The notes under the pieces: generated by a model
Seen by the model: only the letters and a program-made list of their open reading frames with translations
Told to the model about the DNA's origin: nothing
The model's database searches: none
In this document: positions 3,533-19,152 of the stretch, in pieces
Numbering within the stretch: the stretch's first letter is position 1
How the letters are laid out: every line of letters begins with the position of its first letter
Program-made: the position numbers and the translations under genes
DNA from: Burkholderia sp. BCC0322
Lineage (GTDB): Bacteria > Pseudomonadota > Gammaproteobacteria > Burkholderiales > Burkholderiaceae
NCBI RefSeq assembly: GCF_902833045.1
Contig: NZ_CADFDU010000017.1
Coordinates: forward strand, 58,974 to 122,973
Reading direction: 5' to 3'
Length of the DNA: 64,000 nt

Positions 3533-4477
3533 TCAACGTGTCGCGCGCCGGTCGTTGCGCGGGCTCAACCCGAATCGCGTGCGATACGTGCGCGAGAAAT
3601 GCGAAGGCGATTCGAACCCGCACGCGACGCACACCGATGTGATGCTCATGTCGGTCTGCTGCAGCAGTTCGCGTGCGCGATCGAGGCGCAGGTTCAGGTA
3701 GAAATGCGTCGGCGTGTCGTTCAGCGTCGCGCTGAACAGCCGTTCGAGCTGGCGGCGCGTAATCGATACCTCTTGCGCGAGCGCATCGGAGCCGAGCGGG
3801 TTTTCCATGTGCCGCTGCATCGTGCCGATCACCTGGATCAGCTTGCGGTTGTGCACGCCGTAGCGCGCGGCGATCTCGAGCCGCTGGCTGTCGGAGCGCT
3901 GCCGGATCCGGCTGACGACGAACTGCTCGGAGATCGCTGCTGCGAGATCGGCGCCGTGCCGCCGCCCGATCAGGTCGAGCATCATGTCGATCGACGCGGT
4001 GCCGCCCGCGCACGTGATGCGCCGGTCGTCGATCTCGAACAGCTCCTGCGTCGCGTTCAGGCCGGGGTAGCGTTCGCGGAACGCGGCCAGCGCTTCCCAG
4101 TGCAGCGTGAGCGGTTGTGACGCGTCGAACAGCCCGGCTTCCGCGAGCACGAAGCTGCCCGTATCGATGCCGCCGAGCGTTGCACCATGACGGTGCTGGC
4201 GGCGCAGCCAGTCGCCGATCGCGCGCGTGTAGCACACGAGCGGATCGAAGCCCGCGACGACGAACACCGTATCGACGTCGTCGACCTCCGCGCACGCGGC
4301 TTCGGCGGCGACCGGAATGCCGTTGCTCGCGGCGACGGGCGCGCCGTCGGCGCTGATCACGTGCCACCGATAGAGCTCGGCGCGAAAGCGGTTCGCGACG
4401 CGCAGCGGTTCGACCGCGGACATGAAGCCGAGCGCGGAGAAGCCGGGCAGCAGCAGGAAGTGGAAATCCTCGGGCAT
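3533..4477 (-). CDS. AraC-family regulator with DJ-1/GATase-like sensor, GbdR/CdhR type
   Basis: A 314-residue transcription factor. The N-terminal half (about 5-185) is a class I glutamine-amidotransferase-like fold, recognisable from LLLPGFSALGF and GGIDTGSFVLAEAGL. The C-terminal half (about 215-305) holds two AraC helix-turn-helix units (ITRRQLERLF and CGFESPSHFSRTYR). The overall pattern, including EPLRVANRF and LHWEA, closely resembles the regulators of glycine betaine and carnitine catabolism (GbdR, CdhR). A carnitine operon is present at 17103-22831, separated by isocitrate lyase and the peptide-export island, so it may be the cognate activator. The start at 4477 begins the conserved fold; an upstream in-frame start would add 21 residues without similarity. 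Confidence 0.82.
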   Translation of the reverse strand: MPEDFHFLLLPGFSALGFMSAVEPLRVANRFRAELYRWHVISADGAPVAASNGIPVAAEAACAEVDDVDTVFVVAGFDPLVCYTRAIGDWLRRQHRHGATLGGIDTGSFVLAEAGLFDASQPLTLHWEALAAFRERYPGLNATQELFEIDDRRITCAGGTASIDMMLDLIGRRHGADLAAAISEQFVVSRIRQRSDSQRLEIAARYGVHNRKLIQVIGTMQRHMENPLGSDALAQEVSITRRQLERLFSATLNDTPTHFYLNLRLDRARELLQQTDMSITSVCVACGFESPSHFSRTYRTRFGLSPRNDRRATR

Positions 4478-4684
4478 CGGGGCAGGGGATGGGTTCCGGT
4501 GGTCGTCGCGTCTGGCACGCGATGGCGAACCGACGGGCACGCGCCGCGGCCGGCTCGCAGGCGCCGAACGGTCGGCGTCAGCGGAGGATTATCGCGGGTT
4601 TTGCGCGTCGACGGCGTGTTTTCGCGGCGCGCCCGGCCCGGCGCACGGTGGCCGACGGCGGTTCGTCGGCACGACTCGCCGGAC

Positions 4685-4716
4685 AAAAAAAACGCCAACC
4701 CGGCCGGGTTGGCGTT
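4685..4716 (-). terminator. Rho-independent terminator of isocitrate lyase
   Basis: A perfect GC-rich inverted repeat (arms around CGCCAACCCGG) is followed on the minus strand by eight T residues. It sits 22 bp beyond the isocitrate lyase stop codon, in the orientation expected for that gene. Confidence 0.9.
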
Positions 4717-4737
4717 TCGCTTCGGCGATGACCAGTA

Positions 4738-6321
4738 TCAGAACTGGTTCATCGTGTTGTCCTTGCCTGCCGCCTTCAGCGCTGCTTCGCCGCTGAAGTA
4801 TTCCTTGTGATCGTCACCGATGTCCGAGCCGGACATGTTCTGGTGCTTCACGCAGGCGATACCCTGGCGGATTTCCTTGCGCTGCACGCCGGCCACGTAG
4901 CCCAGCATGCCCTGGTCGCCGAAGTATTCCTTGGCCAGGTTGTCGGTCGACAGCGCGGCGGTGTGGTACGTCGGCAGCGTGATCAGGTGATGGAAGATGC
5001 CTGCTTCACGCGATGCATCGGCCTGGAACGTGCGGATCTTCTCGTCGGCCAGCTTGGCCAGTTCCGTCTCGTCGTATTCCACGCTCATCAGCTGCGCACG
5101 GTCGTAGGCCGACACGTCCTTGCCCTCGGCCTTCATCGCGTCGTACGCCTGCTGACGGAAGTTCAGCGTCCAGTTGAACGACGGGCTGTTGTTGTACACC
5201 AGCTTCGCGTTCGGGATGACCTTGCGGATCTCGCTGACCATGCCGCCGATCTGTGCGATATGCGGTTTTTCGGTTTCGATCCACAGCAGGTCGGCGCCGT
5301 TTTGCAGCGCGGTGACGCAATCCAGCACGCAGCGCGCTTCGCCCGTGCCGGCGCGGAACTGGAACAGGTTGCTCGGCAGGCGCTTCGGACGCAGCAGCTT
5401 GCCGTCGCGCTTGATGACGACGTCACCGTTGCCCAGTTGGTCGGCCGACAGTTCTTCGCAGTCGAGGAACGAGTTGTACTGGTCGCCCAGGTCGCCCGGC
5501 GTGTTGGTCACGGCGATCTGCTTGGTCAGGCCGGCGCCCAGCGAGTCGGTACGGGCCACGATGATGCCGTCGTCCACGCCCAGTTCCAGGAATGCGTAGC
5601 GGATCGCGCGGATCTTCGCGAGGAAGTCCTCGTGCGGCACGGTGACCTTGCCGTCCTGGTGGCCGCACTGCTTCTCGTCGGACACCTGGTTTTCGATCTG
5701 GATGCAGCATGCGCCTGCTTCGATGAATTGCTTGGCCAGCAGGTACGTGGCTTCCGCGTTGCCGAAACCGGCGTCGATGTCGGCGATGATCGGCACGACG
5801 TGCGTGACGTGGTTGTCGATCTTGTCCTGGATCGCGGCCTTCGCGGCAGCATCCTTGGCGGCGTCCAGCTCGCGGAACAGGCCGCCCAGTTCACGGGCGT
5901 CGGCCTGGCGCAGGAACGTGTACAGCTCGCGGATCAGCGCGCTGACCGAGGTCTTTTCGTGCATCGACTGGTCCGGCAGCGGGCCGAACTCCGAGCGCAG
6001 CGCGGCAACCATCCAGCCGGACAGGTACAGGTAGCGGCGCTCGGTGCTGTTGAAGTGCTTCTTGATCGAGATCATCTTCTGCTGGCCGATGAAGCCGTGC
6101 CAGCAACCCAGCGACTGCGTGTACTTGGTCGGGTCGGCGTCGTAGGCGGCCATGTCGGCGCGCATGATCTTCGCGGTGTACTTGGCGATGTCCAGGCCCG
6201 TCTTGAACTTGTTCTGGGCACGCATGCGGGCGGCGTACTCGGGGTTGATCGCATTCCACGCGCTGCCGTGGTTTTCTTTCAAACCGGCAACTGCCTTGAT
6301 GTCGTCTTGATACTGGGCCAT
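4738..6321 (-). CDS. aceA: Isocitrate lyase, long (subfamily 3) form
   Basis: Splits isocitrate into glyoxylate and succinate in the glyoxylate shunt, needed for growth on acetate, fatty acids and other C2 sources. The 527-residue product is longer than the E. coli enzyme and matches the long class found in Pseudomonas and Burkholderia. The catalytic-loop motif is present as KQCGH at 217-221, following the metal-binding DIDAGFGN. The start at 6321 has a clear AGGAG eight bases upstream, and the frame extends upstream without conserved sequence. It is monocistronic: a strong terminator follows. About 110 bp upstream there is a palindrome that is a likely operator. Acetyl-CoA from carnitine breakdown elsewhere in this window would be one source of substrate. 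Confidence 0.96.
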   Translation of the reverse strand: MAQYQDDIKAVAGLKENHGSAWNAINPEYAARMRAQNKFKTGLDIAKYTAKIMRADMAAYDADPTKYTQSLGCWHGFIGQQKMISIKKHFNSTERRYLYLSGWMVAALRSEFGPLPDQSMHEKTSVSALIRELYTFLRQADARELGGLFRELDAAKDAAAKAAIQDKIDNHVTHVVPIIADIDAGFGNAEATYLLAKQFIEAGACCIQIENQVSDEKQCGHQDGKVTVPHEDFLAKIRAIRYAFLELGVDDGIIVARTDSLGAGLTKQIAVTNTPGDLGDQYNSFLDCEELSADQLGNGDVVIKRDGKLLRPKRLPSNLFQFRAGTGEARCVLDCVTALQNGADLLWIETEKPHIAQIGGMVSEIRKVIPNAKLVYNNSPSFNWTLNFRQQAYDAMKAEGKDVSAYDRAQLMSVEYDETELAKLADEKIRTFQADASREAGIFHHLITLPTYHTAALSTDNLAKEYFGDQGMLGYVAGVQRKEIRQGIACVKHQNMSGSDIGDDHKEYFSGEAALKAAGKDNTMNQF

Positions 6322-6434
6322 GTCAATCTCCTGGGAGCAAAGCGCGTTTGAGTAACTGGTTGAGCGTGCCCGCTGCGTCTGTCGAAGCGAACTGCATGGG
6401 ATAAATAGTAACGCCGCCCGCCGAGCTTTTGGTA

Positions 6435-6459
6435 ATGTCTTATATAAGACATAAGACAT
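6435..6459. promoter_or_regulatory. Palindromic operator candidate upstream of aceA
   Basis: ATGTCTTATATAAGACAT (6435-6452) is a perfect 18-bp palindrome. A third half-site, ATAAGACAT, overlaps its right end at 6451-6459, so two half-sites lie in direct repeat. It is about 115 bp upstream of the aceA start. The form suggests a dimeric repressor, for example a GntR-type regulator of central carbon genes. The bound protein is not known from this sequence. Confidence 0.65.
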
Positions 6460-6877
6460 TATTTTTTGTTTATTTTCAACAAGTTACGCAGAGATTTTTG
6501 CAATGCAAAACAAGTTTTCAAGCGGCGAAAAGGTGTCGGCGCGGGAATTCGGCGCGAATTTCGCGATACGAAACGCGCTTTCGGCTGCTGGAGATCAGGC
6601 CAGCTTCACACGCGCCCGTGACACCCGTTCGTCGGGGCGGTGCGAGCGGCGCTGAACCGAAGCCGCGCTGGCTGTTGCTTTCGGTTAGATCCGGATATGA
6701 GCCCTGAACCCCCTTAGCGCCGAGGCTTTGCGACGGACGAATAGTGCAAGTAACGCGACCACGTAGCGATGGGCGTGCCATGCACGCATTGAGGGGGGGG
6801 CCGTCTACGTCTGGCCGTGAGCCCCGCGCCTCGCGAACGGATGCGTATCGAAACCGTCACTTCGCGCGGAGATATCG
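6460..6877. other. Intergenic junction between aceA and the peptide-export island
   Basis: No gene could be supported. The aceA promoter lies at the left end. The right end is a G-rich run near 6791 followed directly by the 3' end of the outer-membrane channel gene. Composition shifts across this gap, so it may be the left boundary of the island. No integrase, tRNA or matching direct repeat was found. Confidence 0.4.
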
Positions 6878-8350
6878 TCACGGCGCTTCAGCGTGCGGCG
6901 TCCAACGCTGACCGTCGAGCGTCCCAATTGAAAACGCCAGCACGAGCCTCGACACACGCCAATCAGCCTGTGATTGCACCACCTGACGTTGCGCCGTTGC
7001 GAGGGTGGTTTGTGCGTTCAGGACATCGAGCAGGGGACCGACGCCGGCACTGTAGCGTCTGCTCGCTACGTCGTACGCTTCCCGCGCGCTTTCCTGTGTC
7101 GACGAGGCAACCTGTAGATTCGCCATTTTCGTTATCACGTCCTGATAGCTGCGCCATACTGCCGACGCGACTTCCAGCTCGGCTTTATGCAGGCTTGCGC
7201 GGTCGATATCAACCTGAGCCTGCGATGCCTGATGGTGATACTCCTGACCAAACCCCGAAAAGATGGGGATGCTGATCTGAATTCCTACATATTTGCGGTA
7301 CGTGCGCGTGTCGCGTGGAAATGCGCCTAATGACTTGTCGTTGCTCAACGTGCCCGACAAGGAAATCGTGGGCAACTCCTCCCTGCGCGCAAGTTTCGCG
7401 TTCGCTTCGTCAGCTTCGATCAGTGCTTGCGCCTCGCGCAACTTCGGATTGACTGCTTTTGCCAGCGCCAGCAGATCAGCAATCGAAGACGTAAAATTCA
7501 CGTCCGGTTGAGCCCCCGCGCTCACATCAACTTCAATGGCAGTATCGACGGGAATTCCCATGCGTAGACACAAGGTGCCTTGCGCGGCCTTGAGCGCACC
7601 CGTCGCGTTTACGCGTGTGTAAATTGCCTCCTGCCATGCGGCCTTAGCCTGCAATTCATCGTTCAATGTACCGGCGCCCGCAAGGTGTTTGTGCCGGGCA
7701 ATCTGAAAGCTTCGTTCGGCATTCGCCTCGGCGTTGTTCGCCGCATCAAGTGTGCTTTGTGCAGTCCAGACCGCATAGAACGCGGCTGCAGCCTGTTCGA
7801 ACACAGATTGCAGTGCTTCGGTATGGCTCGCCTTGGAAAGCTCGAGAAGCCCCTTGTAATAGGCCAGGTTCGCGTCGCGCCTTCCGAAATCGAAGAGCAC
7901 CCACGACAGCCGTAACTCACCATAACGATCCGATGCGCGGCCCATCGCATCAGGCAGTGTCGGACCAGATAGGGTTTCAGTTTCAACCGTACGCGAACGT
8001 GTGCCACTGGCATCTAGCGTCGGCAACCACGCAGATTTTGCGACACCCACCTGAGCCGCGTTCAAGACCATGTTCGCCCAGCTTTCGCGCACGGTCGGAT
8101 CGCTACACAGAGCGCGACTGACTGCGTCATACAGGGAAACAGGCGAATGAAGGCTCGCCTCACTACAGGCGCCTGTAGTGCGTGCCATCCGGTTCAAATC
8201 GGGCGATACATCTTCCAGTCCTCTTCGTGTCGAAAATGGATCCAGTTGCGCATGCGTCAGCGGAACGACGAGCCCGGCGACCGCGAGGCAGGCAACAACG
8301 AGCGCACAACGGTATGAAAGCGTTCGAAGCGCGACATTCTTCTTTCTCAT
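6878..8350 (-). CDS. TolC-like outer-membrane efflux protein of the peptide exporter
   Basis: A 490-residue outer-membrane factor that should form the trimeric channel completing the type I secretion complex. It has a hydrophobic N-terminal signal (about 15-35) and two alternating helical OEP repeats; LSWVLFDFGRRDANL and IPIFSGFG are typical repeat-end motifs. Its start overlaps the stop of the ABC exporter gene by four bases (ATGA), so the two are translationally coupled. It is the last gene of the six-gene minus-strand unit. A dedicated TolC inside the locus makes the exporter self-sufficient. The family call is firm; its partner assignment comes from position. Confidence 0.9.
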   Translation of the reverse strand: MRKKNVALRTLSYRCALVVACLAVAGLVVPLTHAQLDPFSTRRGLEDVSPDLNRMARTTGACSEASLHSPVSLYDAVSRALCSDPTVRESWANMVLNAAQVGVAKSAWLPTLDASGTRSRTVETETLSGPTLPDAMGRASDRYGELRLSWVLFDFGRRDANLAYYKGLLELSKASHTEALQSVFEQAAAAFYAVWTAQSTLDAANNAEANAERSFQIARHKHLAGAGTLNDELQAKAAWQEAIYTRVNATGALKAAQGTLCLRMGIPVDTAIEVDVSAGAQPDVNFTSSIADLLALAKAVNPKLREAQALIEADEANAKLARREELPTISLSGTLSNDKSLGAFPRDTRTYRKYVGIQISIPIFSGFGQEYHHQASQAQVDIDRASLHKAELEVASAVWRSYQDVITKMANLQVASSTQESAREAYDVASRRYSAGVGPLLDVLNAQTTLATAQRQVVQSQADWRVSRLVLAFSIGTLDGQRWTPHAEAP

Positions 8351-10440
8351 GCCGTTTCCCGCACATGCCCAAGATCGATGACGCGATCAGCAGATGCGAT
8401 GGTTTCAGGACGGTGCGCGACAATGATCCGTGTGATATTCAGCTTGCGCATCGCTGAGTTCACGGCGCGTTCGTTGTTCACGTCAAGATGGCTCGTCGCC
8501 TCATCGAGCAGGAGCAGTTTCGGACGGCGGTAAAGGGCGCGTGCGAGCATCACGCGTTGCCGCTGACCTGCGGACAGGGCAGACCCCATGTCGCCGATGT
8601 AGGTGTAGTAGCCCATCGGCATCGCACGAATATCGGCATGGACGGAAGCCGTTTCCGCGCATTCCGTGATCCACGCGAAGTCGGGCGTTGGATCGAAGAA
8701 GCTGATGTTCTCGGCAATCGATCCCGCGAATAGTCGATCCTCCTGCATCACGACGCCGATCAGGGAGCGATAGTTCGCAAGACCCATTTGCCGAATCGGC
8801 ATGCCGCCTGCGATAATTTCCCCCGAATGAGGTGCCAACAAGCCTGCGAGCAGTTTCAGCAACGTCGTTTTGCCTTGGCCGGAGGGCCCGACAATTGCGA
8901 CGGCTTCGCCCGCCTCAACACGCAGATCCAGGTTATCGATGATCCTCTGCCCGTTCTTCGAATAGCTGTATGACAATTTCTTGACTTCGAGCGTCGGCAC
9001 AAATTCATCCACGTCCGGCGCTCGCATCACTTCATCCGGCTCCCGTTTCGAGAGCACGATATCCGCCAGCCGCGCCGCGTGAAGTTTGAGAATTCTCAGC
9101 TCGTACACTTTGTCGATCAGCGCAGTAAAGCGTGCGGTGAACTGCCCACGATAAGACAGGAAGGCGAACAGCATCCCGAGCGAGAGCGACCTGTCGATGA
9201 CGGCAAGCGCGCCGAAGTAGGTCACTAGAATCGCCTCGAGCCCGAAGATGAAATGATTGCTTGTGGTCGCGATCAGTTGAAGCCGTCGCGTTCGCAGGTC
9301 GGCGTTCTTCTCGCTTACGATCACGTTCAGCCAGCGGGCCAGCCGGTCCTCCGCCTTACCGAAAAGGCGCACGCTCTGAATGCCCCGGACCGATTCCATG
9401 AGCAGACTTTTGCCTCGTGCAGCGAAAACGATCTGCTTCTGATTCGACATGCGCAGCGCACCATAAATGCAGGCGCGCAAGATCGCGTAGAGCACGACGG
9501 CAACCACGCTGATAAGCGATAGCCGGGCGTTGTAGACGATCATGATAATGATGGTGCCGATCGACATGAGACCATCGAGCACGGATTCAACGAAGCCGAC
9601 CGTCAGCGCTTGCTGGATCGTATTGACGCTATCGAAGCGGGAAACGATATCGCCAATGTGGCGTTTTCCGAAATAGTCGAGCGGCAGATTCAGCAGATGG
9701 CGGAACACGTTCGCCAACCATTGCACATTCACGACCGTGCTGAACGTCGTTACAGCCCACGATCGCATTGCCTCTGTCGCGATATGGATCACCAGCACCA
9801 ACCCGAAACCCAGCGCTAAAATCAGAAGCAGGTGTCGATCGCCAGTTGTAATGGCTTGGTCAGTGACCCACTCGGGATAGAAGGGCGCAACAATGGTGAA
9901 GACTTCAAGCGCAAGGGCGAGCAAGAAGACTCTGAGCAACCCACGCCCGACACCACTTGCACGCCCCATCAGGGACCGCAGACCGATTTCCTGCTTATCC
10001 CGGCGAGGCTGAAAGGCCGGCGTCGGCACGAGTTCCAATGCCATGCCGCTGAAATGCAGCGACAATTCCTTGAGCGACATGCGCCGCGCGCCGAGCGCGG
10101 GGTCAACCAACATCACATGATCGCGGCCAACACGTTCGAGGACGACAAAATGCCGAAAATCCCAATGCAGAATGCACGGCAGGCGCAGCAGGTGAAGCTC
10201 TTCCGGTTCCAGCCGAACCGCGCGCCCGGCAAGATCGAGGGATGCGCCGATCTTGACAAGATCGAGCAGCGTAAGCCCCTTGAGTGATGGCGAAAAGCGC
10301 CGTCGCAACGTTGGCAGATCGGTGTCGTAGCCGTGAAACGTTGCGATCATGCTGATGCAGGCTAGTCCACATTCCGTTGCTTCGGTTTGCAAATGCACGT
10401 CAATACTGCGCCGAAATCCGAATTGAAGTTGGCGGTTCAT
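8347..10440 (-). CDS. C39-peptidase ABC exporter (CvaB/PCAT type)
   Basis: A 697-residue inner-membrane transporter that should cleave a double-glycine leader and export the mature peptide. The N-terminal C39 peptidase is intact: oxyanion Q18, catalytic C24 in TECGLAC, H97 in FRHFVVL and D113 in VDPALG. A six-helix transmembrane domain follows (about 165-450). The ATPase domain has the Walker A GPSGQGKTT, the signature LSAGQRQRV and the Walker B LLLLDEATS with the D-loop HLD. An active protease domain, as opposed to the degenerate one in HlyB-type exporters, predicts a GG-leader substrate. Such a precursor is encoded about 2.5 kb upstream in the same unit. A 33-bp gap separates it from the HlyD gene. 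Confidence 0.95.
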   Translation of the reverse strand: MNRQLQFGFRRSIDVHLQTEATECGLACISMIATFHGYDTDLPTLRRRFSPSLKGLTLLDLVKIGASLDLAGRAVRLEPEELHLLRLPCILHWDFRHFVVLERVGRDHVMLVDPALGARRMSLKELSLHFSGMALELVPTPAFQPRRDKQEIGLRSLMGRASGVGRGLLRVFLLALALEVFTIVAPFYPEWVTDQAITTGDRHLLLILALGFGLVLVIHIATEAMRSWAVTTFSTVVNVQWLANVFRHLLNLPLDYFGKRHIGDIVSRFDSVNTIQQALTVGFVESVLDGLMSIGTIIIMIVYNARLSLISVVAVVLYAILRACIYGALRMSNQKQIVFAARGKSLLMESVRGIQSVRLFGKAEDRLARWLNVIVSEKNADLRTRRLQLIATTSNHFIFGLEAILVTYFGALAVIDRSLSLGMLFAFLSYRGQFTARFTALIDKVYELRILKLHAARLADIVLSKREPDEVMRAPDVDEFVPTLEVKKLSYSYSKNGQRIIDNLDLRVEAGEAVAIVGPSGQGKTTLLKLLAGLLAPHSGEIIAGGMPIRQMGLANYRSLIGVVMQEDRLFAGSIAENISFFDPTPDFAWITECAETASVHADIRAMPMGYYTYIGDMGSALSAGQRQRVMLARALYRRPKLLLLDEATSHLDVNNERAVNSAMRKLNITRIIVAHRPETIASADRVIDLGHVRETA

Positions 10441-10473
10441 GGTTGCTTTGGTTAGGTGAAGCGTGAACTGCGG

Positions 10474-11799
10474 TCAGGGCGAGCGGCGGGTGAGCGTGTA
10501 CAGCGGTTCCAGTACCCATTCGTACAGCTTGCGCGTATCGAGCACTACGTCTGCGTCGACGCGCATCCCGTCCTGCAAGGGAATCGACTCGCCGTAGGCG
10601 TTGATGGTCTGTGAATCGAGCGCAACCGTGATCTGATACAGGTTCTCGGATCTGTCGGCATCACCCGTTTCGGTTGCGGTCTGCAATTGCGACGGGCTCA
10701 AGGCGGTGCGAGCGATCTGCGTGACCTTGCCCGCGTAGGCCCCGAATTTCTGATACGGGAACGCTTCGTATCGCAATTCGACGGGCGCGCCGATCTTGAC
10801 GAAACCGACTGCCTTGCTCGGCGCAAACAGTTTCACGTCGAGGCGTCCACCTTGCGGCAGCAACGACATCAAAGGCGTTGATCCGTTGACCGACTGACCG
10901 GGACGAGTGAGCAGGGCCGTAACGGTGCCTGCGATTTGCGCCGGTATCGTGATTTCTCGGTTGGATTCGTTGTCGGCGATTTCGCCGTCCACCTGTAGCA
11001 TCTGCCGGTGGATCGTGCCTAGTTGGTTTTGTTCATCAAGCGGTGCATTTCGAAGATCGGCCTTCACCTGTGCGAGTTCCGCGTGAGAGGCCGTGCGTTG
11101 CTTTCGCAGGTCTTCGAGTTGCGCTTGACTCGTCAACATGCTTTGCTCGTGCTGCTCGAATTCGGATTGGGACACCACATCGTCACGCCGCAATTGTGCG
11201 AACCGCGCGCTGTCGATTTCGGCAAGCTTCGATCGCGCGTCAAGCGTCGTGATTTCCGTATCCAGATGCTGAATACCTGCGCTCAGTTCGGTGGCCTTCG
11301 CCCGGAGCATCGCAATGTTCTGTTCGAAGATGCTTTGTATATGCCGCGAGTCGCTTTCCAGGCTGGAGCGCCGCGCATTCAGTTCAACGCCGATCTGCTG
11401 CCGCGCGTTGCCGCCCGCGATAGTGCGCTCTGTGGACACGACGACCAAAGGTTGGCCGACATTGACAACGTCCCCTTCGTTGACGAGCACGCGGATAACC
11501 GTGCCGACCGTCGGCGCGAATATTTCTGCCGCGCCGTTGTCGATCATGACCCTGCCTTGTACCTCTTCCTTGCGCGTGTACTCGCCGAAGATCAGGAACA
11601 ACACCACGGCGGTCGCGATTGCGAAGAACACGATGCTAGTCGTGAGGCTGCGTGCCGAACCTGTCAGAACGACCTCGCCGAGCCATTGATGCTGACGAAA
11701 TTCGAGCGCAGCGGGGCGGAACAGCAACGCACGCTTACTTTGCCGTGGCTGTTCCTCTTCAGGCTGCTCTGCGCTGGGGGCGGTCGATATCTCGCTCAT
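10474..11799 (-). CDS. HlyD/CvaA-family membrane-fusion protein
   Basis: A 441-residue periplasmic adaptor linking the C39 ABC exporter to the TolC-like channel. It has a cytoplasmic N-terminal tail, one membrane helix (about 50-72), a lipoyl half (GRVMIDNGAAEIFAPTVG), a long coiled-coil hairpin (about 130-270) and the returning beta-barrel domain. The CvaA-like layout, with the large hairpin and a C-terminal RVDADVVLDTRKLYEW segment close to the HlyD consensus, fits microcin and bacteriocin exporters. Its start lies 24 bp after the CPBP gene stop codon, consistent with one transcript. Confidence 0.92.
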   Translation of the reverse strand: MSEISTAPSAEQPEEEQPRQSKRALLFRPAALEFRQHQWLGEVVLTGSARSLTTSIVFFAIATAVVLFLIFGEYTRKEEVQGRVMIDNGAAEIFAPTVGTVIRVLVNEGDVVNVGQPLVVVSTERTIAGGNARQQIGVELNARRSSLESDSRHIQSIFEQNIAMLRAKATELSAGIQHLDTEITTLDARSKLAEIDSARFAQLRRDDVVSQSEFEQHEQSMLTSQAQLEDLRKQRTASHAELAQVKADLRNAPLDEQNQLGTIHRQMLQVDGEIADNESNREITIPAQIAGTVTALLTRPGQSVNGSTPLMSLLPQGGRLDVKLFAPSKAVGFVKIGAPVELRYEAFPYQKFGAYAGKVTQIARTALSPSQLQTATETGDADRSENLYQITVALDSQTINAYGESIPLQDGMRVDADVVLDTRKLYEWVLEPLYTLTRRSP

Positions 11800-11823
11800 G
11801 CTTATCTTGCGGTCAGCGGATGA

Positions 11824-12777
11824 TCACACGCGCTGAGCACCGACGGCGCTTGCGGCTTCTTTAGACACAAACCAGCCGTTCGTCTTCTTCAAAAGCCAAT
11901 ACATCAAAGCGAAAGGCAGGACACCTTTGAGAATGGCAAAGACAACCGCATCAGCTATCAGGCCTGGATTGTTTACGAATCCGGACGTTGAAATTTGCGC
12001 ATGTGGCTGCGCGTGGGTGAACAGGATCGGCAGCATCATTGCGCAGATGTTCATCATCGTATGTGCACCGATCGACAGTTCCAGTCGTTGATCGCGTAAG
12101 CTCAATGCAGAAAACCCAAGCGAGCAAAAAAACAATGTCGTTTTGATGGGCCAGTCGTACTGTGTGTGGTAGATCGCGAAGAGGGCGGCAACGATTGCGA
12201 CGACAATGAGCGGGGAACGCACATATTGCCCGAGCGTTTGCGTCAACCACCCACGGAAAAACAATTCCTCGGCGAACGCGAGAACGAGAATGCCGAGCCA
12301 CGCGGCGAGCATCCCGAGAATCCGACCGAAACCTGGAATGTCCTGCAGCGGTTGAAGATGCCCGAACGGAAGCGTCCATGTGCCAATTCGAATCGACGTA
12401 TAGATGGACATGACTGCGGCCGATATCACGAAGGCAGGCAGATAAAGAACCGCGCCGAACAGGCAACGCCGAAGTCTGAAACGCAGGTCGACGGAAATCA
12501 GGGAGAGGTACGGGCGTCGCAAGACGATCTTGCATGCAAGCCAGAAGCCTATGATGCCCGTGGTGCTGGCTGTATTGGTGTACAGCGAGATAGCTGCGCG
12601 AGCGGCATCAAAATTCTTGAAATACAGAGTCCAGCCCGAAAACATCAGGATCCCAAGCGTGCCGATGATACTCACGAGCGCGCTAAGAAGGATCGTCGAT
12701 GCGGTTGCTCGCCAATCAGTCCGGCCCAGCTTGGCAAGATCAATAAACGCACGCGTTATATCGTCTTTGGTTTTCAT
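11824..12777 (-). CDS. CPBP-family intramembrane protease-like protein, possible immunity or processing factor
   Basis: A 317-residue polytopic membrane protein of the CPBP (CAAX protease and bacteriocin-processing) family. The three motifs are present in order: EELFFRG (EExxxR), FAIYH (FxxxH) and HTMMN (HxxxN), so the catalytic residues appear intact. About seven hydrophobic segments are visible. In other bacteriocin loci such proteins act in self-immunity or in processing. Here it lies directly downstream of the GG-leader peptide gene (165-bp gap) and upstream of the exporter genes. Its role as immunity protein is inference from position. The start at 12777 is the first Met of the conserved frame; its ribosome-binding site is weak. 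Confidence 0.85.
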   Translation of the reverse strand: MKTKDDITRAFIDLAKLGRTDWRATASTILLSALVSIIGTLGILMFSGWTLYFKNFDAARAAISLYTNTASTTGIIGFWLACKIVLRRPYLSLISVDLRFRLRRCLFGAVLYLPAFVISAAVMSIYTSIRIGTWTLPFGHLQPLQDIPGFGRILGMLAAWLGILVLAFAEELFFRGWLTQTLGQYVRSPLIVVAIVAALFAIYHTQYDWPIKTTLFFCSLGFSALSLRDQRLELSIGAHTMMNICAMMLPILFTHAQPHAQISTSGFVNNPGLIADAVVFAILKGVLPFALMYWLLKKTNGWFVSKEAASAVGAQRV

Positions 12778-12942
12778 GGAATGCTGATCGAGTGAAACAA
12801 CGGTTGCTTGCTTTTAGCAACGCAATTGCGGTGTGCTGTGTGGTGCCATACCGATGAAGATCAGACGTCCAGTCGCGGGACCAGTAGCGCGCCGTCATTC
12901 ATCGATCAGGCTGGGTTCATAGCCTGTACATCAGGGCGCTGC

Positions 12943-13398
12943 TTAGTGGTTGTGACCGCCGCCACCGATGCCGAGCCCGTGTGCGGCAGCGCCAACCGCG
13001 TATCCTGCGGCGAAGCCGATCGGAGAAGATTGGAAGGAGGTGAGGTTGGCAGTTTCAGCCTGACCCAACGAAAGACCCTGTTGCGCGGCGTCATATCCGG
13101 CAACGGCCGCGCCGCCCCACGTAGACATTGATTCGTCCTGCAAGCCCTTCGTGGCTTCCGCGAGTTGGCCGTTGTTTTCAGCCTGCCCGATGGAATCGTT
13201 GGCATCGGAATTGAAGCCTGCGTCGGCCAACGACGTCGCGTCGCTGCCTACTGCCGAATCGGCGGCGGAATCACCGTCGCCGTCACCATCGCCATCGCCA
13301 TCGCCGTATCCGCCACCATCACCATCGCCGTCACCGCCGCCATCACCATCACCACCGGCCACGTAGCGCAGCAAATCCAGATCGTCAATCGTTTGCAT
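12943..13398 (-). CDS. Double-glycine-leader peptide precursor with Gly-Asp repeat (microcin-like)
   Basis: A 151-residue secreted-peptide precursor; I do not recognise a named family. The first 16 residues, MQTIDDLDLLRYVAGG, form a classic double-glycine leader, with V at -4 and L at -7. Cleavage would release about 135 residues. The mature part starts with about 27 residues of Gly/Asp repeat (17-43) containing one Tyr. A Ser/Ala/Asn/Gln-rich middle follows, then a small-residue hydrophobic segment (about 126-147) and the tail GGGGHNH. The start at 13398 has a good AGGAG; an upstream start would bury the leader. It is flanked by the fusion protein and the CPBP gene. Export by the C39 transporter downstream is strongly implied; activity is unknown. 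Confidence 0.85.
   Translation of the reverse strand: MQTIDDLDLLRYVAGGDGDGGGDGDGDGGGYGDGDGDGDGDGDSAADSAVGSDATSLADAGFNSDANDSIGQAENNGQLAEATKGLQDESMSTWGGAAVAGYDAAQQGLSLGQAETANLTSFQSSPIGFAAGYAVGAAAHGLGIGGGGHNH
13271..13357. repeat. Degenerate 6-bp tandem repeat coding for Gly-Asp
   Basis: On the plus strand the segment is built from near-identical hexamers of the type GCCATC/GCCGTC/ACCATC, which read Gly-Asp on the minus strand. The unit keeps the reading frame, so slippage would lengthen or shorten the Gly-Asp tract without breaking the peptide gene. Confidence 0.8.
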
Positions 13399-13497
13399 GT
13401 GATCCACTCCTGAAATAAGCGGGTTTGACGTGTACATCCACAATGGCACCCGCGCAGCCATTGATTCTCAATCGGTTGTCGAAACAAAGGTCGTGCG

Positions 13498-16296
13498 TCA
13501 GGATTCCGAGCGTTGCAGCACTTGCGACGGCGGTTGCGTGTGCGTCTGTTCGGTGAATGCGCCGCGCACTGGAAGGGGATTTGCACTGTCCGCTATCGCC
13601 CAGGTCAGGCAAGGAGCGACTTCCCACGTTGAGGCCGGAATATCCGGCAGCGCCGCGATGAACGACTCTTCGTCCGTCCACTGATGCAATGTCAATACAG
13701 GCAAGAAAGCTTGTACCTGATTTCCGTTTCGGCAGATCAGCGCATCCCGATCCATACGGAAGTGACCGCGATAGCGCGTGCGATCGACAGGACGGCCTTT
13801 GAATATCAGCGACAGGAACACGCGCGACGCACCGGTACATTGGTCAGACAGGGACTGTTGCAGATCATGAAAATTCGCCATCTTGGGCGCCGGCACAAGC
13901 TGTGTGGTGAACTCTGTATCCACGTACCGAGTGACGGCCAGAGCAGAAAGTCGATCTACCACGCCCGAGAACGAATCTTCCAGCTCGTCCTGCTTTCGTG
14001 GATCGAGCAACCGCGACACGAAGCGCGTTAGCGCCGTCGCGTCGTATGGAAGCGGAACACCATAGGCCGGCCACGACATATCATCTGTCTGTCGTTCAAC
14101 GGTATGGCGGTAAAGCGTGTGCCCTTCGCTGGGCGTCAGTCTGGCGTTGCGCAGCGCGTGCAGATATTGGCCGTGTTCGTTGCTATATTCAGGGGAGTTC
14201 GGCAGCCCGCCGCCGTGCTTGCCGCCTGCCGTTGCGCGCACGAGTATTCCGAATTTTTCGTGATCCAACTGGTCGACTGTGACTTGCTCAAGCGGTCCGA
14301 ACAGGCTCACGCTAACGGCGGTATCGCGCAGCGAATCGACGGCCAGGTTCGCGCACGCCTTCGTCACCGCCACGATGACAGACAACTCCGGTGATAGGTC
14401 GCGTGGGTCGAACGTCCATTGACCGCCGCGCCCGATGCGCTGCAAGGTCGCGCGATTTCGCAGGCTCACGAAGACACCACCTTGCGGGCGTGTTCCGGTC
14501 AATTTGTATCCTCGCGGATCAGGCAGAGCGGAGCGATTCGCAATTGCATCGACAGCAAGCCGTGCAAGCTGTAATGCGGTCACGTCAACCGGCGACTGCG
14601 CGTCTTGTGCTGGTTCGCGCATGACTGGCGGCGTCACAGACACGCCGTATAGGCGATTAGCCGTCGTCGCAACCGTGAGTATCTGATTGACCGCGTCGTA
14701 TTCGACGGATGTTGTCACGGCATCAGGAAGCTGGAATACGCCTGCGAGCGCAAACGTTTGAGGATCGATTGCGCGTACGCGCCCGTTCGTGCTTCCGAAC
14801 CAAATCCATGGGCCGATGCGGGCAGGCGACGAAAAAATCTTCGAGTGTGCGCCGATCTTGGCGATTCCTTCGCCGGTCGCCAAATCGATCACGTACAGGT
14901 ATTTGTCCGTAGAGCCGCAGTAGGCGCGAGCACCGTCGATCAGCGGTGTTGTGTAGACGGCGTTGCCGGTCTGGATGCAGAATTTCAGTTCGCCGCTATC
15001 GAGGCTCACGCCGCGAATGCCGCCGTCGAACGATCCGAACACGACTTGCCGGCGATCGGGATCGAATGCGGGCGCATGCTTGACCGCGCCGTTCGTCTGA
15101 AACTGCCAACGAAGTGCGCCGGTACGTGCGTCGAGCGCCAGCAGGGCGCCGTCGTTCGTGCCGCAGAGCACCAGCGAACCATCAGCGGCATAGAGCGGGG
15201 AGCCATGGACGTAGCAACGGACCGGGCATTCCCAGACCTTGTGACCGGTTTCAGCGTCGATCGCGGCTATGCCGCCGCCTCGCGTCGGACTGGCGTATTC
15301 AACGCCGATAAAGACCAGATTCAGGTCGGATGCATAGGCCGGTGAAGAGCCAATCCAATCGGGTTCGACGTATCGCCAGATTTCCCGGCCGCTTTGGGCA
15401 CACAACGCGTACAGGTTACCGTCGTAGCCGCCGAAGAAGACGCGCTCGGGCGTCACGTACGGCGTAGACCAAATCCCTTTCGAGCGCGCCGCCTCGATCT
15501 TGAAATTCCAGCGCGTTTCGCCGCTTGCGCCATCGATGCAACGCATTTCGCCGCTGTCGGTTCCGAAATAGATCAGGCCGCCTTGCGCGCGCGGTGCGGA
15601 TTTCGGTACGACATAGTGGTGATTCGCAGAGGCCGCTTTACTGAGCCAGCGCACGAGGAACGAAAGCTGCGTCGAATGGCTCTTCGGAATTGACAGTTTC
15701 AGGTCGAAATCACCGAGAACGTATGCAGATTCTACTGTAACGCCATGTCGCTTTTGCCAGTCCTCACCCGTATTGGACTGGTAGTCGATCACGCTCCATG
15801 CTTTCCAGATCGGGCGACCAATTTCCGCTAATACAACGCGTGATTGTTCAATGCTGGCGCCGCTGTTGAAAATATCATCCACGAGCAGAATGGGCGCATC
15901 CGAAACCTCGCCTTCGATCGCGTTCATCCGGCCGTAACGCTTACGCTCTTTATGAATGATGAAGCCGCCGAGGTTGTGCCCTTTTCGTGCGCCGGCCATA
16001 AGAATCGCAGCCACGAGCGGGACAGCGGCCATTTCCATGCCGCCGACCTGAAACGGCAATTGATCTGCATAACGATTCCAGAATAAATCCGCAAGTGTAT
16101 CGAGCCCTTCTGTAGAAAGGAGGATTGGCCGCAAATCGATAAGCCATTTAAGGGACTTTCCGCTCGACGATACAAGCTTGTGTTTCGGCGCGCGAAATAT
16201 GCATTTCGACTCAATTAGATCACGTAGCGCGGCCCACCTGTCCAGGCTGAAATCATTCATGTTTTTTAGTCGGTCGATTACTTCACGTGTCTCCAT
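13498..16296 (-). CDS. Multidomain protein: orotate-PRTase-like, PQQ-type beta-propeller, AMMECR1-like domains
   Basis: About 932 residues from the ATG at 16296 (a GTG at 16338 would give 946); neither start has a strong ribosome-binding site. Domains in order: an orotate-phosphoribosyltransferase-like fold (about 15-180) with the PRPP loop ILLVDDIFNSGAS; a PQQ-type beta-propeller (about 235-550) with repeats such as YALCAQSGREIWRY and LLALDARTGALRW; an AMMECR1-like domain (about 570-735) with GGVFVSL and FGILVRA; and a tail (745-932) that looks like a second, eroded AMMECR1 half (FLPVLTLHQWTDEESF). The usual AMMECR1 LRGCIG motif is replaced by LQRIGRGG, losing the Cys. No signal peptide, so it is probably cytoplasmic. 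It heads the unit, 99 bp before the peptide gene, which suggests a role in peptide modification or control. Function unknown. Confidence 0.75.
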   Translation of the reverse strand: METREVIDRLKNMNDFSLDRWAALRDLIESKCIFRAPKHKLVSSSGKSLKWLIDLRPILLSTEGLDTLADLFWNRYADQLPFQVGGMEMAAVPLVAAILMAGARKGHNLGGFIIHKERKRYGRMNAIEGEVSDAPILLVDDIFNSGASIEQSRVVLAEIGRPIWKAWSVIDYQSNTGEDWQKRHGVTVESAYVLGDFDLKLSIPKSHSTQLSFLVRWLSKAASANHHYVVPKSAPRAQGGLIYFGTDSGEMRCIDGASGETRWNFKIEAARSKGIWSTPYVTPERVFFGGYDGNLYALCAQSGREIWRYVEPDWIGSSPAYASDLNLVFIGVEYASPTRGGGIAAIDAETGHKVWECPVRCYVHGSPLYAADGSLVLCGTNDGALLALDARTGALRWQFQTNGAVKHAPAFDPDRRQVVFGSFDGGIRGVSLDSGELKFCIQTGNAVYTTPLIDGARAYCGSTDKYLYVIDLATGEGIAKIGAHSKIFSSPARIGPWIWFGSTNGRVRAIDPQTFALAGVFQLPDAVTTSVEYDAVNQILTVATTANRLYGVSVTPPVMREPAQDAQSPVDVTALQLARLAVDAIANRSALPDPRGYKLTGTRPQGGVFVSLRNRATLQRIGRGGQWTFDPRDLSPELSVIVAVTKACANLAVDSLRDTAVSVSLFGPLEQVTVDQLDHEKFGILVRATAGGKHGGGLPNSPEYSNEHGQYLHALRNARLTPSEGHTLYRHTVERQTDDMSWPAYGVPLPYDATALTRFVSRLLDPRKQDELEDSFSGVVDRLSALAVTRYVDTEFTTQLVPAPKMANFHDLQQSLSDQCTGASRVFLSLIFKGRPVDRTRYRGHFRMDRDALICRNGNQVQAFLPVLTLHQWTDEESFIAALPDIPASTWEVAPCLTWAIADSANPLPVRGAFTEQTHTQPPSQVLQRSES

Positions 16297-16338
16297 CGCG
16301 ATTCGCCTGCGCAGGCGGAATGCATCAATCCCCGTCAC

Positions 16339-17102
16339 ACTATGTGGGATTTGATGATCGCCAAGAATTTCATTTATAATAACGAAAGGTTACGGATGCA
16401 TTCCGCAGTTGGCGCGTAAAATCAATTGTGCAGCGCTCGAATTCTGCATTGCTCATACGAAATAAGGCTAAAATATTTTTAGAATATTTTAACGATGAAA
16501 ATTATTGCCTATTTTTTATTGGTGACATAGGTGGGTTTCTCCGGCGCGACAGAAGCGAAATATTCGATTTATCGATACTAAACATCGCTGTCGTCAAAAT
16601 TAAATTCTCGCTGAAACCGATATCGGCCGAGGCGGTACTTTGGAGCGTACGCCCTGTGTTCGCAAACTGAGCGGCCTGAGAGGGCCGCTAACACCCGCGT
16701 CTTTGTCTTGTAAAAGCGACAAAGTGCCGGGTGCACGGGGCGCGATCGGCAACCTGGCACCAAATGAAAGAACCGGCGGGAAAGCCGGTACGAGAGATTC
16801 GCGCTGTATCTGCGTGGGATGAAAAGGCTGTAGGGCAGCCATCCTTGGTTTTGTCCAGTCCTCCCCCACCAGCATCGCGCCGCATGCGGACAAGCCGAAT
16901 CCATCGGAAATGCGCGTGAAAACCCCGCCCACCAAGTCTCTCGGGAAACCTAGTGGTTTCCACTCATAGTCGCAAACAGTCAAGAACAGGTCGCCGCCGG
17001 TCTTCTCGCGGCCAATATGGCTCGTTACTTTTACTCCCACGATGCAGGCCGGGCACACCCCGCGCACCGGCTGCCGCGAGTCCCACCGGGAGGAAACGAA
17101 CC
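16339..17102. other. AT-rich then hairpin-rich gap between island and carnitine operon
   Basis: The left part (about 16360-16610) is AT-rich and should hold the promoter of the minus-strand island. From about 16650 the composition rises again and short inverted repeats occur (for example around GCGGCC...GGCCGC near 16670 and ACCGGC...GCCGGT near 16772). A minus-strand frame at 16600-17067 is open for 155 codons, but it has no clear start or family and I do not call it. The caiX promoter must lie at the right end; its ribosome-binding site GGGAGG is at about 17089-17094. Confidence 0.45.
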
Positions 17103-18056
17103 ATGAAGTCGACGAAGATCGCCGCGCTTGCCGCGGCCGTGCTGGCGACCGGCGCGTTCACACACGCGGCGCTTGCCGAAACGGATGCCGCGACCTGCCG
17201 CACCGTGCGTTTCGCGGATATCGGCTGGACCGACATCACGTCGACAACGGCGCTCGCGTCGACCGTGTTCGAGGCGCTCGGCTACAAGCCGACCACGACG
17301 ATCGCGTCGGTGCCGATCTCGTTCGCCGGCCTGAAGAGCAAGCAGCTCGACATATCGCTCGGCTACTGGTGGCCCGTGCAGCAGAAGCAGCTCCAGCCGT
17401 TCCTCGACAGCAAGTCGATCAACGTCGTCGAGCCGCCGAACCTGTCGGGCGCAAAGGCGACGCTCGCGGTGCCGAGCTACGAATACCAGGCCGGCCTGAA
17501 GACCTTCGAGGACATCGCGAAGCACCGCGCGGAACTCGACGGCAAGATCTACGGGATCGAGCCGGGCAGCAGCGCGAACGCGACGATCCAGAAGATGATC
17601 GACACGAACCAGTACGGGCTCGGCGGCTTCAAGCTCGTCGAATCGAGCGAGGCCGGGATGCTGGTGACGGTCGAGCGCGCGATCCGCGAGAAGAAGTGGG
17701 TCGTCTTCCTCGGGTGGGAGCCGCATCCGATGAACATCCAGCTCAGCATGAACTATCTCTCCGGCGGCGACGCGTCGTTCGGGCCGAACTACGGCGAAGC
17801 GCGCGTGTACACGCTCACGGCGCCGGACTTCATTTCACGCTGCCCGAATGCCGGCAAGCTCGTCACGAACCTGCGCTTCTCGACGCAGCTCGAGAACCAG
17901 CTGATGCAGTCGGTGATGAACAAGACGAAGCCGGCCGAAGCCGCGAAGGCGTACCTGAAGAAGAACCCGCAGGTGCTCGATCCGTGGCTCGCGGGCGTCA
18001 AGACGTTCGACGGCAAGGACGGGCTGCCGGCCGTGAAGGCATATCTCGGCCTGTGA
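17103..18056 (+). CDS. caiX: Carnitine/betaine ABC periplasmic binding protein
   Basis: A 317-residue substrate-binding protein of the ProX/OpuAC class that captures quaternary ammonium compounds for ABC import. Residues 1-26 are a signal peptide. Aromatic residues suited to a quaternary-ammonium cage are present in DIGWTDI, GYWWPVQ and FLGWEPHP. The start at 17103 follows GGGAGG with eight bases of spacing. It leads a plus-strand operon of carnitine-degrading enzymes. That matches CaiX, the carnitine-specific binding protein encoded next to cdhCAB in Pseudomonas, which uses a distant choline-type permease and ATPase. No permease or ATPase is encoded here, consistent with sharing a core transporter. 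Confidence 0.9.
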
Positions 18057-18135
18057 CGGCCTGCGCGCATCCACCGGTGCGCCCCGACGAAACACCCGCA
18101 ATGCGACACAACCCGATTCAAGCGAGGCAACCAGC

Positions 18136-19065
18136 ATGAACCACGAAGTCATCATCACCTGCGCCGTCACCGGCGCGGGCGATACGGTCGGCAAGCATCC
18201 GGCGATTCCGGTCACGCCGAAGGAGATCGCGGCCGCCGCGATCGAGGCCGCGAAGGCCGGCGCGACGGTGGCGCACTGCCACGTGCGCGACCCTCAGACG
18301 GGGCGCGGCAGCCGCGACCCGAACCTGTACCGCGAAGTGGTCGACCGCATCCGCTCGGCCGACGTCGACGTGATCATCAACCTGACGGCCGGCATGGGCG
18401 GCGATCTCGAGATCGGCCCCGGCGAAGACCCGATGCGTTTCGGCAAGGGGACCGACCTGGTCGGCGGCCTCACGCGTCTCGCGCACGTCGAGGAACTGCT
18501 GCCCGAAATCTGCACGCTCGACTGCGGCACGCTGAATTTCGGCGATGGCGACTACATCTACGTGTCGACGCCCGCGCAATTACGCGCCGGCGCGAAGCGC
18601 ATCCAGGAACTCGGCGTGAAGCCGGAGCTGGAGATCTTCGACACCGGCCATCTGTGGTTCGCGAAGCAGTTGCTGAAGGAAGGGCTGCTCGACGATCCGC
18701 CGCTGTTCCAGCTGTGCCTCGGCATTCCGTGGGGCGCCCCGGCCGACACGGGCACGATGAAGGCGATGGTCGACAACCTGCCGCCGGGCGCGCACTGGGC
18801 CGGCTTCGGGATCGGCCGCATGCAGATGCCGATGGTCGCGCAGGCGATGCTGCTCGGCGGCCACGTGCGGGTCGGCCTCGAAGACAACATCTGGCTCGAT
18901 CGCGGCGTGCATGCGACCAACGGCACGCTCGTCGAACGCGCGCGAGAGATCGTCGAGCGACTCGGCGGCCGCGTGCTGACGCCGGCCGAAGGGCGCCGCA
19001 AGCTCGGCTTGCCGGCACGCGGCGAGCGTCCGCTCGAACGCCGTGCGCTCGCCGAGTTCGCGTGA
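18136..19065 (+). CDS. cdhC: 3-dehydrocarnitine cleavage enzyme (BKACE family)
   Basis: A 309-residue beta-keto acid cleavage enzyme of the BKACE/DUF849 family. The family reaction transfers an acetyl group between the keto acid and acetyl-CoA. In carnitine catabolism it converts 3-dehydrocarnitine plus acetyl-CoA into betainyl-CoA and acetoacetate. Family motifs are [10 protein letters not shown] near the N-terminus, the metal-binding [10 protein letters not shown], and [11 protein letters not shown] near the C-terminus. It sits between the carnitine-binding protein and the dehydrogenase, the order known for cdhC. Operon context makes carnitine the likely pathway; BKACE enzymes vary in substrate. 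Confidence 0.9.
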
Positions 19066-19152
19066 GTTTTTCCCCGACTGATTGATACGACGCGGCGGCA
19101 CGCACGGGCGCGGCCGCCCGCCGATTTCCCCTGATTTGAAGGATGCGTTGAC

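Follow-up and report, generated by a model that had tools for sequence, protein, structure and literature searches.

In the part of the Cdz paper available to us, Cdz-like toxins are described by four criteria: a length of 60–151 residues, a leader ending in G[G/A/S], a glycine zipper that is flanked but not interrupted by a proline or charged residue, and a short charged or polar C-terminus (PMC5380434). In the same text, mature CdzC and CdzD consist of 75% glycine plus alanine, valine and isoleucine, and CaaX proteases are common in glycine-zipper bacteriocin islands. Confirmed immunity proteins of class II microcins have 51–216 residues, as far as the accessible part of that account goes (PMC9746304), and in the mcb locus of Moraxella the gene directly after the peptide gene is the immunity gene (PMC2761928, likewise in excerpt). 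The bacteriocin-like Naps of gonococci play a role in autolysis, and the available part of their description records no detectable antimicrobial activity (PMC11798529).

Here we describe a six-gene operon of Burkholderia sp. BCC0322, located in a stretch of 64,000 nucleotides (hereinafter the window), which joins a putative bacteriocin and its export genes to a large fusion protein. We recognised no description of such a fusion or locus in the open-licence literature searched.

Results

The window locus contains six ORFs on the minus strand, each open from start to stop, in the transcribed order fusion protein, double-glycine precursor, CPBP membrane protein, HlyD-type adaptor, C39 exporter and outer-membrane channel (OEP). 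Gaps of 99 bp (fusion to peptide), 165 bp (peptide to CPBP), 24 bp (CPBP to HlyD) and 33 bp (HlyD to C39) separate the genes, and the C39 and OEP genes overlap by 4 bp. A search of genome contigs with the precursor returned three further loci, in B. seminalis (L001), B. puraquae (L002) and Paraburkholderia solitsugae (L003). All three match the window in gene content and gene order, except that the CPBP gene is doubled in L003. An earlier reading made from the sequence only had proposed six tightly spaced same-strand genes, and all of them are present with full reading frames. It had started the fusion at 16296, an ATG not kept in L001 and L002, and this start is replaced by the conserved ATG at 16260 (920 aa). 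The precursor begins with an ATG at 13398, with AGGAG upstream. The features are as follows.

6667..16870, no strand: inserted segment of about 10.2 kb, as defined against the empty sites of five genomes
16261..16817, minus strand: region upstream of the operon, presumed promoter region, partly AT-rich; common to L001 (to 16770) and L002 (to 16817)
13498..16260, minus strand: fusion protein, 920 aa, with OPRT-type PRTase, PQQ-like propeller, AMMECR1-like and C-terminal domains
15646..16260, minus strand: PRTase domain, residues 1–205, with the PRPP loop LLVDDIFNSG at residue 125
14617..15645, minus strand: PQQ-like beta-propeller, residues 206–548, by Pfam
14056..14583, minus strand: divergent AMMECR1-like domain, residues 560–735, RGCIG signature lost
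13501..14055, minus strand: C-terminal domain of the fusion, residues 736–920, of no assigned family, with weak hints of a second AMMECR1-like unit
12943..13398, minus strand: double-glycine precursor of 151 aa, with 135 aa left after the predicted cleavage
13351..13398, minus strand: precursor leader MQTIDDLDLLRYVAGG, 16 aa, invariant in 4/4 orthologs
13270..13350, minus strand: Gly-Asp tract, precursor residues 17–43, of differing length among orthologs
12991..13017, minus strand: glycine zipper GFAAGYAVG, precursor residues 128–136, preceded by SSPI
12946..12966, minus strand: polar tail GGGGHNH, precursor residues 145–151, invariant in 4/4 orthologs
11824..12777, minus strand: membrane protein of the CPBP family (PF02517), 317 aa, candidate for immunity
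10474..11799, minus strand: HlyD-type periplasmic adaptor, 441 aa, by Pfam and NCBIfam
8347..10440, minus strand: C39 peptidase ABC exporter, 697 aa, triad intact, by Pfam, NCBIfam and PDB match
6878..8350, minus strand: TolC-like outer-membrane channel (OEP), 490 aa, by Pfam and NCBIfam

Five of the genes are assigned by Pfam and NCBIfam, the precursor being the exception. Specifically, Pfam matches OEP (8.7e-58), HlyD_3 (1.2e-15), CPBP (PF02517; 6.7e-15) and, in the exporter, Peptidase_C39 (6.4e-32) together with ABC_membrane and ABC_tran. The exporter keeps the proposed C39 triad (C24, H97 and D113) and has the ABC motifs, and its residues 8–688 of 697 match solved ABC-type bacteriocin transporters (4ry2, 8.5e-88). 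The operon thus holds the set of class II microcin parts, namely a double-glycine precursor, a C39 exporter with the Cys/His/Asp triad, an adaptor and a TolC-type channel, and the view of it as a self-contained export locus is supported. Scans for promoters and terminators gave counts within the spread of shuffled sequences.

The precursor is built of a 16-residue leader, the Gly-Asp tract, a polar middle, the zipper and the tail, with leader, zipper and tail identical in the four copies. It has 151 residues in the window, 150 in L002, 153 in L001 and 156 in L003. The leader has hydrophobic residues at −4 and −7 and begins with MQ, as do two leaders encoded next to related exporters, MQELNQQEVALVSGG (L078) and MQQLTAQEIDMVSGG (L083). 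The net charge is −21 without histidine, and 63 of the 135 residues of the predicted mature form (47%) are glycine, alanine, valine or isoleucine. Hydrophobicity of the precursor is mild, the best 19-residue Kyte-Doolittle mean being 1.25.

The precursor has no match in Pfam at E 0.1. NCBIfam hits to Sdr/Clf adhesins (E 0.005–0.02) are far below the cut-offs and reflect Gly-Asp repeats. The calcium-binding RTX nonapeptide consensus includes a hydrophobic repeat position. The Gly-Asp tract lacks this position, and an RTX protein was rejected as an identity on this ground and on the lack of a Pfam match. All four published Cdz-like criteria describe the window precursor, a likeness drawn from these criteria. 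The length lies within 60–151 residues in two of the four copies and slightly exceeds it in L001 and L003; the leader MQTIDDLDLLRYVAGG ends in G[G/A/S] in all four; SSP-I-GFAAGYAVG, invariant in the four copies, is the flanked zipper; and GGGGHNH is the polar C-terminus. The earlier suggestion of a possible new class of exported peptide is not supported, the precursor fitting the published Cdz-like description (PMC5380434, as far as available). The peptide appears to be a variant of an already described type, and the new element is the fusion.

All six genes of the operon are under purifying selection, with dN/dS of 0.04–0.26 for all genes and all pairs computed. The values are 0.13–0.22 for the fusion and 0.06–0.13 for the precursor, and the precursor, its simple sequence notwithstanding, is therefore a translated and selectively constrained reading frame. 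Identity to P. solitsugae is 53% for CPBP, 75% for the fusion, 81% for OEP, 84% for the precursor, 87% for HlyD and 92.5% for the exporter. CPBP is thus the fastest-changing gene of the operon (53% versus 75–92.5% for the other five).

The operon is rare. In 398 Burkholderiaceae genomes, the precursor profile has two true matches. Six further matches past E 0.001 (21–26 bits) were rejected, as they cover only columns 16–67, mostly the tract; two of the six were inspected, and one of these (L036) is a six-base simple repeat, judged by its translations. The C-terminal part of the fusion is present in 2/398 genomes of the family and 2/65 of the genus, and in 0/398 genomes across the phylum, a draw that held no known positive. 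Precursor and fusion have their matches in one and the same pair of genomes (G229 and G092), and only these two among the 398 Burkholderiaceae genomes have the operon version of the exporter (98%). All sets contain one genome per species, and the frequencies are species-level rather than strain-level. Co-occurrence of C39 exporter, fusion and double-glycine peptide, suggested earlier as a check, is seen in 4/4 copies (the window and L001–L003), a count that is partly selection since L001–L003 were found via the peptide. The exporter and fusion C-terminal searches of the 398 Burkholderiaceae genomes recovered operon versions only in peptide-bearing genomes. The fusion is indeed unusual, as had been thought, and was not found away from the peptide in the family, genus and phylum searches.

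An empty site is present in 5/30 Burkholderia genomes, in which the flanks of the operon (the isocitrate lyase side and the substrate-binding-protein side of the window) lie 33, 30, 54, 202 and 204 bp apart and the operon is absent. The insert in the window therefore spans about 6667–16870. In the other 25 genomes the best flank matches are far apart or on separate contigs, or, in two of the 25, the isocitrate lyase side lacks a full match. The GC content of the operon is 57.7%, compared with 64.7% to its left and 67.1% at 16401–40000. Of window positions 4001–20000, only 6872–16770 are common to L001 and only 6872–16817 to L002. The shared bases are limited to the operon and its upstream region, and therefore the L001 and L002 copies sit in other neighbourhoods. 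These comparisons indicate that the operon is a mobile, horizontally moved cassette.

Near the L002 operon there are transposase-type and phage-type integrase genes, and near the L003 operon genes that resemble ParA and, weakly, ParB. The stretches searched at the insert edges contain neither direct nor inverted repeats of at least 10 bases, no integrase gene is among the six genes of the insert beside isocitrate lyase, and no tRNA gene was found in the window or in L001–L003. Plasmids gave no match to the peptide and none to the fusion C-terminal part at E 1, and a search of viral contigs with two patterns confirmed no fusion relative. The whole fusion matches 85 plasmid records; among the best 40 of the 85, the matches lie mainly on the propeller, and two (H1 and H2) begin inside the PRTase part. 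Match H13 was rejected as a fusion relative, being a stand-alone propeller protein with unrelated neighbours. Match H5 carries no annotation.

The sequence-only reading described the fusion as an OPRT-propeller-AMMECR1 protein, of which the first two parts stand and the third is marginal. The PRTase part matches the pyrE model (8.2e-16, 58.3 bits, below the model cut-off of 106.8) and PDB phosphoribosyltransferases (2p1z, 2.6e-10; 2wns, 1.2e-8). It keeps the PRPP loop LLVDDIFNSG and, with its similarity to solved OPRTs, has both features used to recognise an orotate-type PRTase. The propeller is matched in Pfam by Beta-prop_ACSF4 (9.4e-46) and PQQ_2 (1e-26). AMMECR1 (PF01871) scores 23.9 bits in the full protein and 28.3 in the isolated C-terminal part, against a cut-off of 25. 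That isolated part matches in 4/4 orthologs at E 1 or better, and hhalign of the AMMECR1-like region with four ordinary AMMECR1 proteins gives E 0.015. A PF01871 search of genomes did not recover the fusion in G229 and G092. The fusion has LQR-IG where ordinary members have RGCIG, so the signature is lost; GCIG is present in 4/4 ordinary members compared and is preceded by LR in 3/4.

By domain, identity to L003 is highest for the propeller (87%), followed by the PRTase (80%), AMMECR1-like (75%) and C-terminal (56%) domains. A second AMMECR1 copy in the C-terminal domain was considered and is hinted at only weakly: hhalign gives E 0.065, with 10/500 and 6/500 shuffles scoring equally, and E 0.3 against the AMMECR1 region of the fusion itself. 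The AF2 model of the whole fusion has a mean pLDDT of 50.8, with the propeller best modelled, and is too uncertain for fold conclusions. So is that of the C-terminal 368 residues (pLDDT 59.7), in which both halves are helix-strand-strand-helix-strand, a hint only. Neither Pfam nor NCBIfam finds a recognised RiPP enzyme domain in the fusion. A defence role was rejected, PADLOC giving only PsyrT (E 0.012) for the fusion. Two loci were examined as possible distant fusion relatives; L043 was rejected, as it holds an ordinary orotate phosphoribosyltransferase gene, and L042 has nothing relevant among the matches listed.

No signal peptide is evident by eye at the N-terminus of the fusion, which has one weak hydrophobic stretch, so we place the protein in the cytosol. 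That the fusion is linked to the precursor speaks for a role on this cargo, and it may prepare or control the cargo before export.

The exporter search, which scored at most two candidates per genome, found 71 exporters besides the two operon copies, among the matches listed, with 42–54% identity to the window exporter. Sixty of the 71 loci were compared with their flanks, some of which end at contig ends. Matches to HlyD are present in 59/60 and to OEP in 52/60, while tblastn (E 1e-3) matched the PRTase part, the C-terminal part, the precursor and CPBP in 0/60. The more sensitive profile search found CPBP in 1/60 (L081), with Pfam agreeing. Retention of peptide and fusion beside the exporter, the neighbourhood on which the earlier proposal had staked itself, thus holds in 4/4 operon copies and does not extend to relatives at 42–54% exporter identity (0/60). 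At least 16 of the 60 related loci have double-glycine-type cargo candidates with a glycine zipper by pattern search. A 17th match, L132, looks like a transporter part and was left uncounted. The pattern misses some cargoes; that of L070 was spotted by eye.

In the exporter trees, L069 and L070 group with the window clade (FastTree 0.998; IQ-TREE UFBoot 100; both midpoint-rooted). In L069 the cargo combines a double-glycine leader and a glycine zipper with a Gly-Asp tract at the C-terminus. That of L070 (288 aa) has a double-glycine leader, a long Ser/Thr-rich tract, a glycine zipper with a weak Pfam match (PF13441, 7.7e-4, under the cut-off) and an acidic tail; its net charge is −36. ORFs with Gly/Asp runs of at least 14 are present in all four operon copies and in 1/60 other loci (L069). 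The Gly-Asp cargo had been taken as a novelty, a view not supported in the light of the polar low-complexity tracts of these two sister cargoes, which come without the fusion. With such tracts in the sister cargoes, the Gly-Asp tract looks exchangeable in this exporter branch.

The sister loci, both in genomes of the same family, resemble the window in their exporters and in having a double-glycine leader, a zipper and a Gly-Asp or Ser/Thr plus acidic tract. They differ in that they have no fusion or CPBP match and have a TraB/PrgY/GumN protein instead; of the two, only L069 encodes a 2OG-Fe(II) oxygenase together with a DUF6817-GNAT protein. At L069:3755-11806 (G003), these two and the TraB/PrgY/GumN protein lie in one same-strand cluster, the oxygenase and DUF6817-GNAT genes sitting between those for C39 and HlyD. 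Accessory enzymes are thus found beside a sister exporter, which for the role of the fusion is no more than suggestive. From its gene content, L069 is a candidate modified bacteriocin locus of its own. At L070:4260-11123 (G270), the TraB/PrgY/GumN protein is near the sister exporter. L081:5800-12066 (G338) encodes a double-glycine-type peptide candidate, CPBP, HlyD, C39 and OEP, which is the window order without the fusion; the L081 peptide candidate has a leader ending in CGA and lacks a zipper.

The CPBP motifs EELFFR, FAIYH and HTMMN are intact in the window, and EExxxR and FxxxH are kept in all six CPBP proteins compared. The CPBP gene directly follows the peptide gene in the window and in L081. 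The CPBP pair of L003 (L003:10691-12579) consists of neighbouring genes that share 45% identity. In Gram-positive bacteria, CPBP/Abi proteins act as bacteriocin immunity proteins. By analogy, our best guess is that CPBP is the immunity protein of the operon, because it is the fastest-changing gene, is duplicated in L003, and directly follows the peptide as in L081. Its 317 residues lie above the range of confirmed class II microcin immunity proteins in the available account (PMC9746304). Alternatively, CPBP could be a protease that processes the cargo, or could be just an island gene.

Discussion

We propose, with a probability of about 0.6, that the operon encodes a bacteriocin system of the Cdz-like or class II-microcin type, in which CPBP provides immunity and the fusion is a cytosolic accessory protein. 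We infer cleavage, export, killing, immunity and the role of the fusion from sequence. By family, the C39 exporter would cut the 151-residue precursor after Gly16, and the 135-residue product would pass through HlyD and the operon's own TolC-like channel. The acidic Gly-Asp segment is probably a soluble, unfolded spacer, and the C-terminal glycine-zipper segment may insert into target membranes or aggregate at them. The likeliest immunity protein is CPBP, whose gene directly follows that of the peptide, and the fusion may act in the cytosol before export as a cargo accessory, namely a tailoring enzyme, a folding guard or a metabolite sensor.

We favour a bacteriocin because of the C39 triad, the likeness of the exporter to solved bacteriocin transporters, the invariant leader, the Cdz criteria, the zipper cargoes beside related exporters and the cargoes of the sister clade. 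The gene order shared with L081, the fast change and duplication of CPBP, the accessory enzymes at L069 and the purifying selection on all six genes also speak for it. The proposal is weakened by the strong acidity of the peptide and its mild hydrophobicity compared with CdzC and CdzD, by the two copies longer than the published range, by the lack of a zipper in the L081 candidate, by the chance that CPBP is a protease or an island gene, and by the gonococcal Naps, which, in the available part of their report, had no detectable antimicrobial activity (PMC11798529).

The alternative that survives best, although we consider it unlikely, is that the fusion is a true tailoring enzyme, whose PRTase and AMMECR1-like parts would modify the precursor, for example at Asp or His, before C39 cleavage. 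The fusion gene opens the operon and is found only beside the peptide; the protein keeps the PRPP loop; and the cargo offers many modifiable Asp residues and the conserved GGGGHNH tail. Similarly, the sister locus L069, which has a Gly-Asp cargo, has the 2OG-Fe(II) oxygenase and the GNAT-type protein in its export cluster, but searches with these two proteins matched neither in the other 59 of the 60 loci. The loss of the AMMECR1 signature and the lack of a recognised RiPP domain in the fusion also count against tailoring, as does the fact that, to our knowledge, known PRTases act on small molecules.

Less probable again is that the exported protein is a surface, aggregating or signalling protein, serving autolysis, adhesion or metal binding, with CPBP processing it. 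The acidic Gly-Asp tract and the HNH tail could bind metal, and the EExxxR and FxxxH motifs are kept in all six CPBP proteins compared. Neisseria Nap peptides act in autolysis, with no antimicrobial activity detectable in the available part of the report (PMC11798529). The glycine zipper, the mobile and patchy distribution and the fast-changing CPBP, however, fit bacteriocin loci better. That the fusion is an unrelated passenger gene moved along with the operon is improbable: related exporters do without it (0/60 loci match), but it is kept in 4/4 copies, in two genera, at the same position and with dN/dS of 0.13–0.22, and the family, genus and phylum searches found no copy away from the peptide.

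More speculatively, the fusion might found a new kind of peptide-tailoring enzyme, which would use PRPP or a PRPP-derived nucleotide by way of its PRTase part, with the propeller as cargo platform, to decorate the Gly-Asp cargo; we regard this as doubtful. If the fusion does tailor its cargo, the locus would make a modified, exported glycine-zipper bacteriocin, and L069, with its oxygenase, would have reached the same end in parallel within a sister lineage.

Returning to our preferred interpretation of the operon as a bacteriocin system, Gram-negative C39-exported glycine-zipper bacteriocins would be more modular than the available parts of published accounts describe (PMC5380434, PMC9746304, PMC2761928). 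Specifically, polar tracts (Gly-Asp, Ser/Thr) would be swapped in, accessory cytosolic proteins would join the operon, and immunity-type membrane proteins would vary (CPBP, perhaps TraB/GumN). The fusion would also be a concrete test case for the roles of AMMECR1-like and orphan PRTase domains.

Of the described systems, the mcbABCI locus of Moraxella shares with the window the secretion genes and a double-glycine peptide followed directly by an immunity gene, in the window a candidate one, as far as its available description goes. It differs in that McbI has 74 residues and is not a CPBP protein, and OEP and fusion genes are not in that part of the description (PMC2761928). A Moraxella catarrhalis plasmid (NC_011131.1) has a C39 exporter 45.5% identical to that of the window.

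Compared with Cdz (cdzABCDI, Caulobacter), as given in the accessible text, the window too has a type I exporter, a small double-glycine-leader cargo, a proline-flanked zipper and a polar tail, and Cdz is likewise horizontally acquired, with CaaX proteases often present in such islands (PMC5380434). The window differs from Cdz in its single cargo, its 27-residue acidic Gly-Asp tract and its lower hydrophobicity, and in having OEP and CPBP genes in the operon plus the large fusion protein. With class II microcins (microcin V/CvaAB-TolC), again as described in the available text (PMC9746304), the window shares the double-glycine precursor, the C39 triad exporter, the adaptor, the channel and a candidate immunity gene; it is set apart from them by the channel gene inside the operon, the net charge of −21 and the fusion protein.
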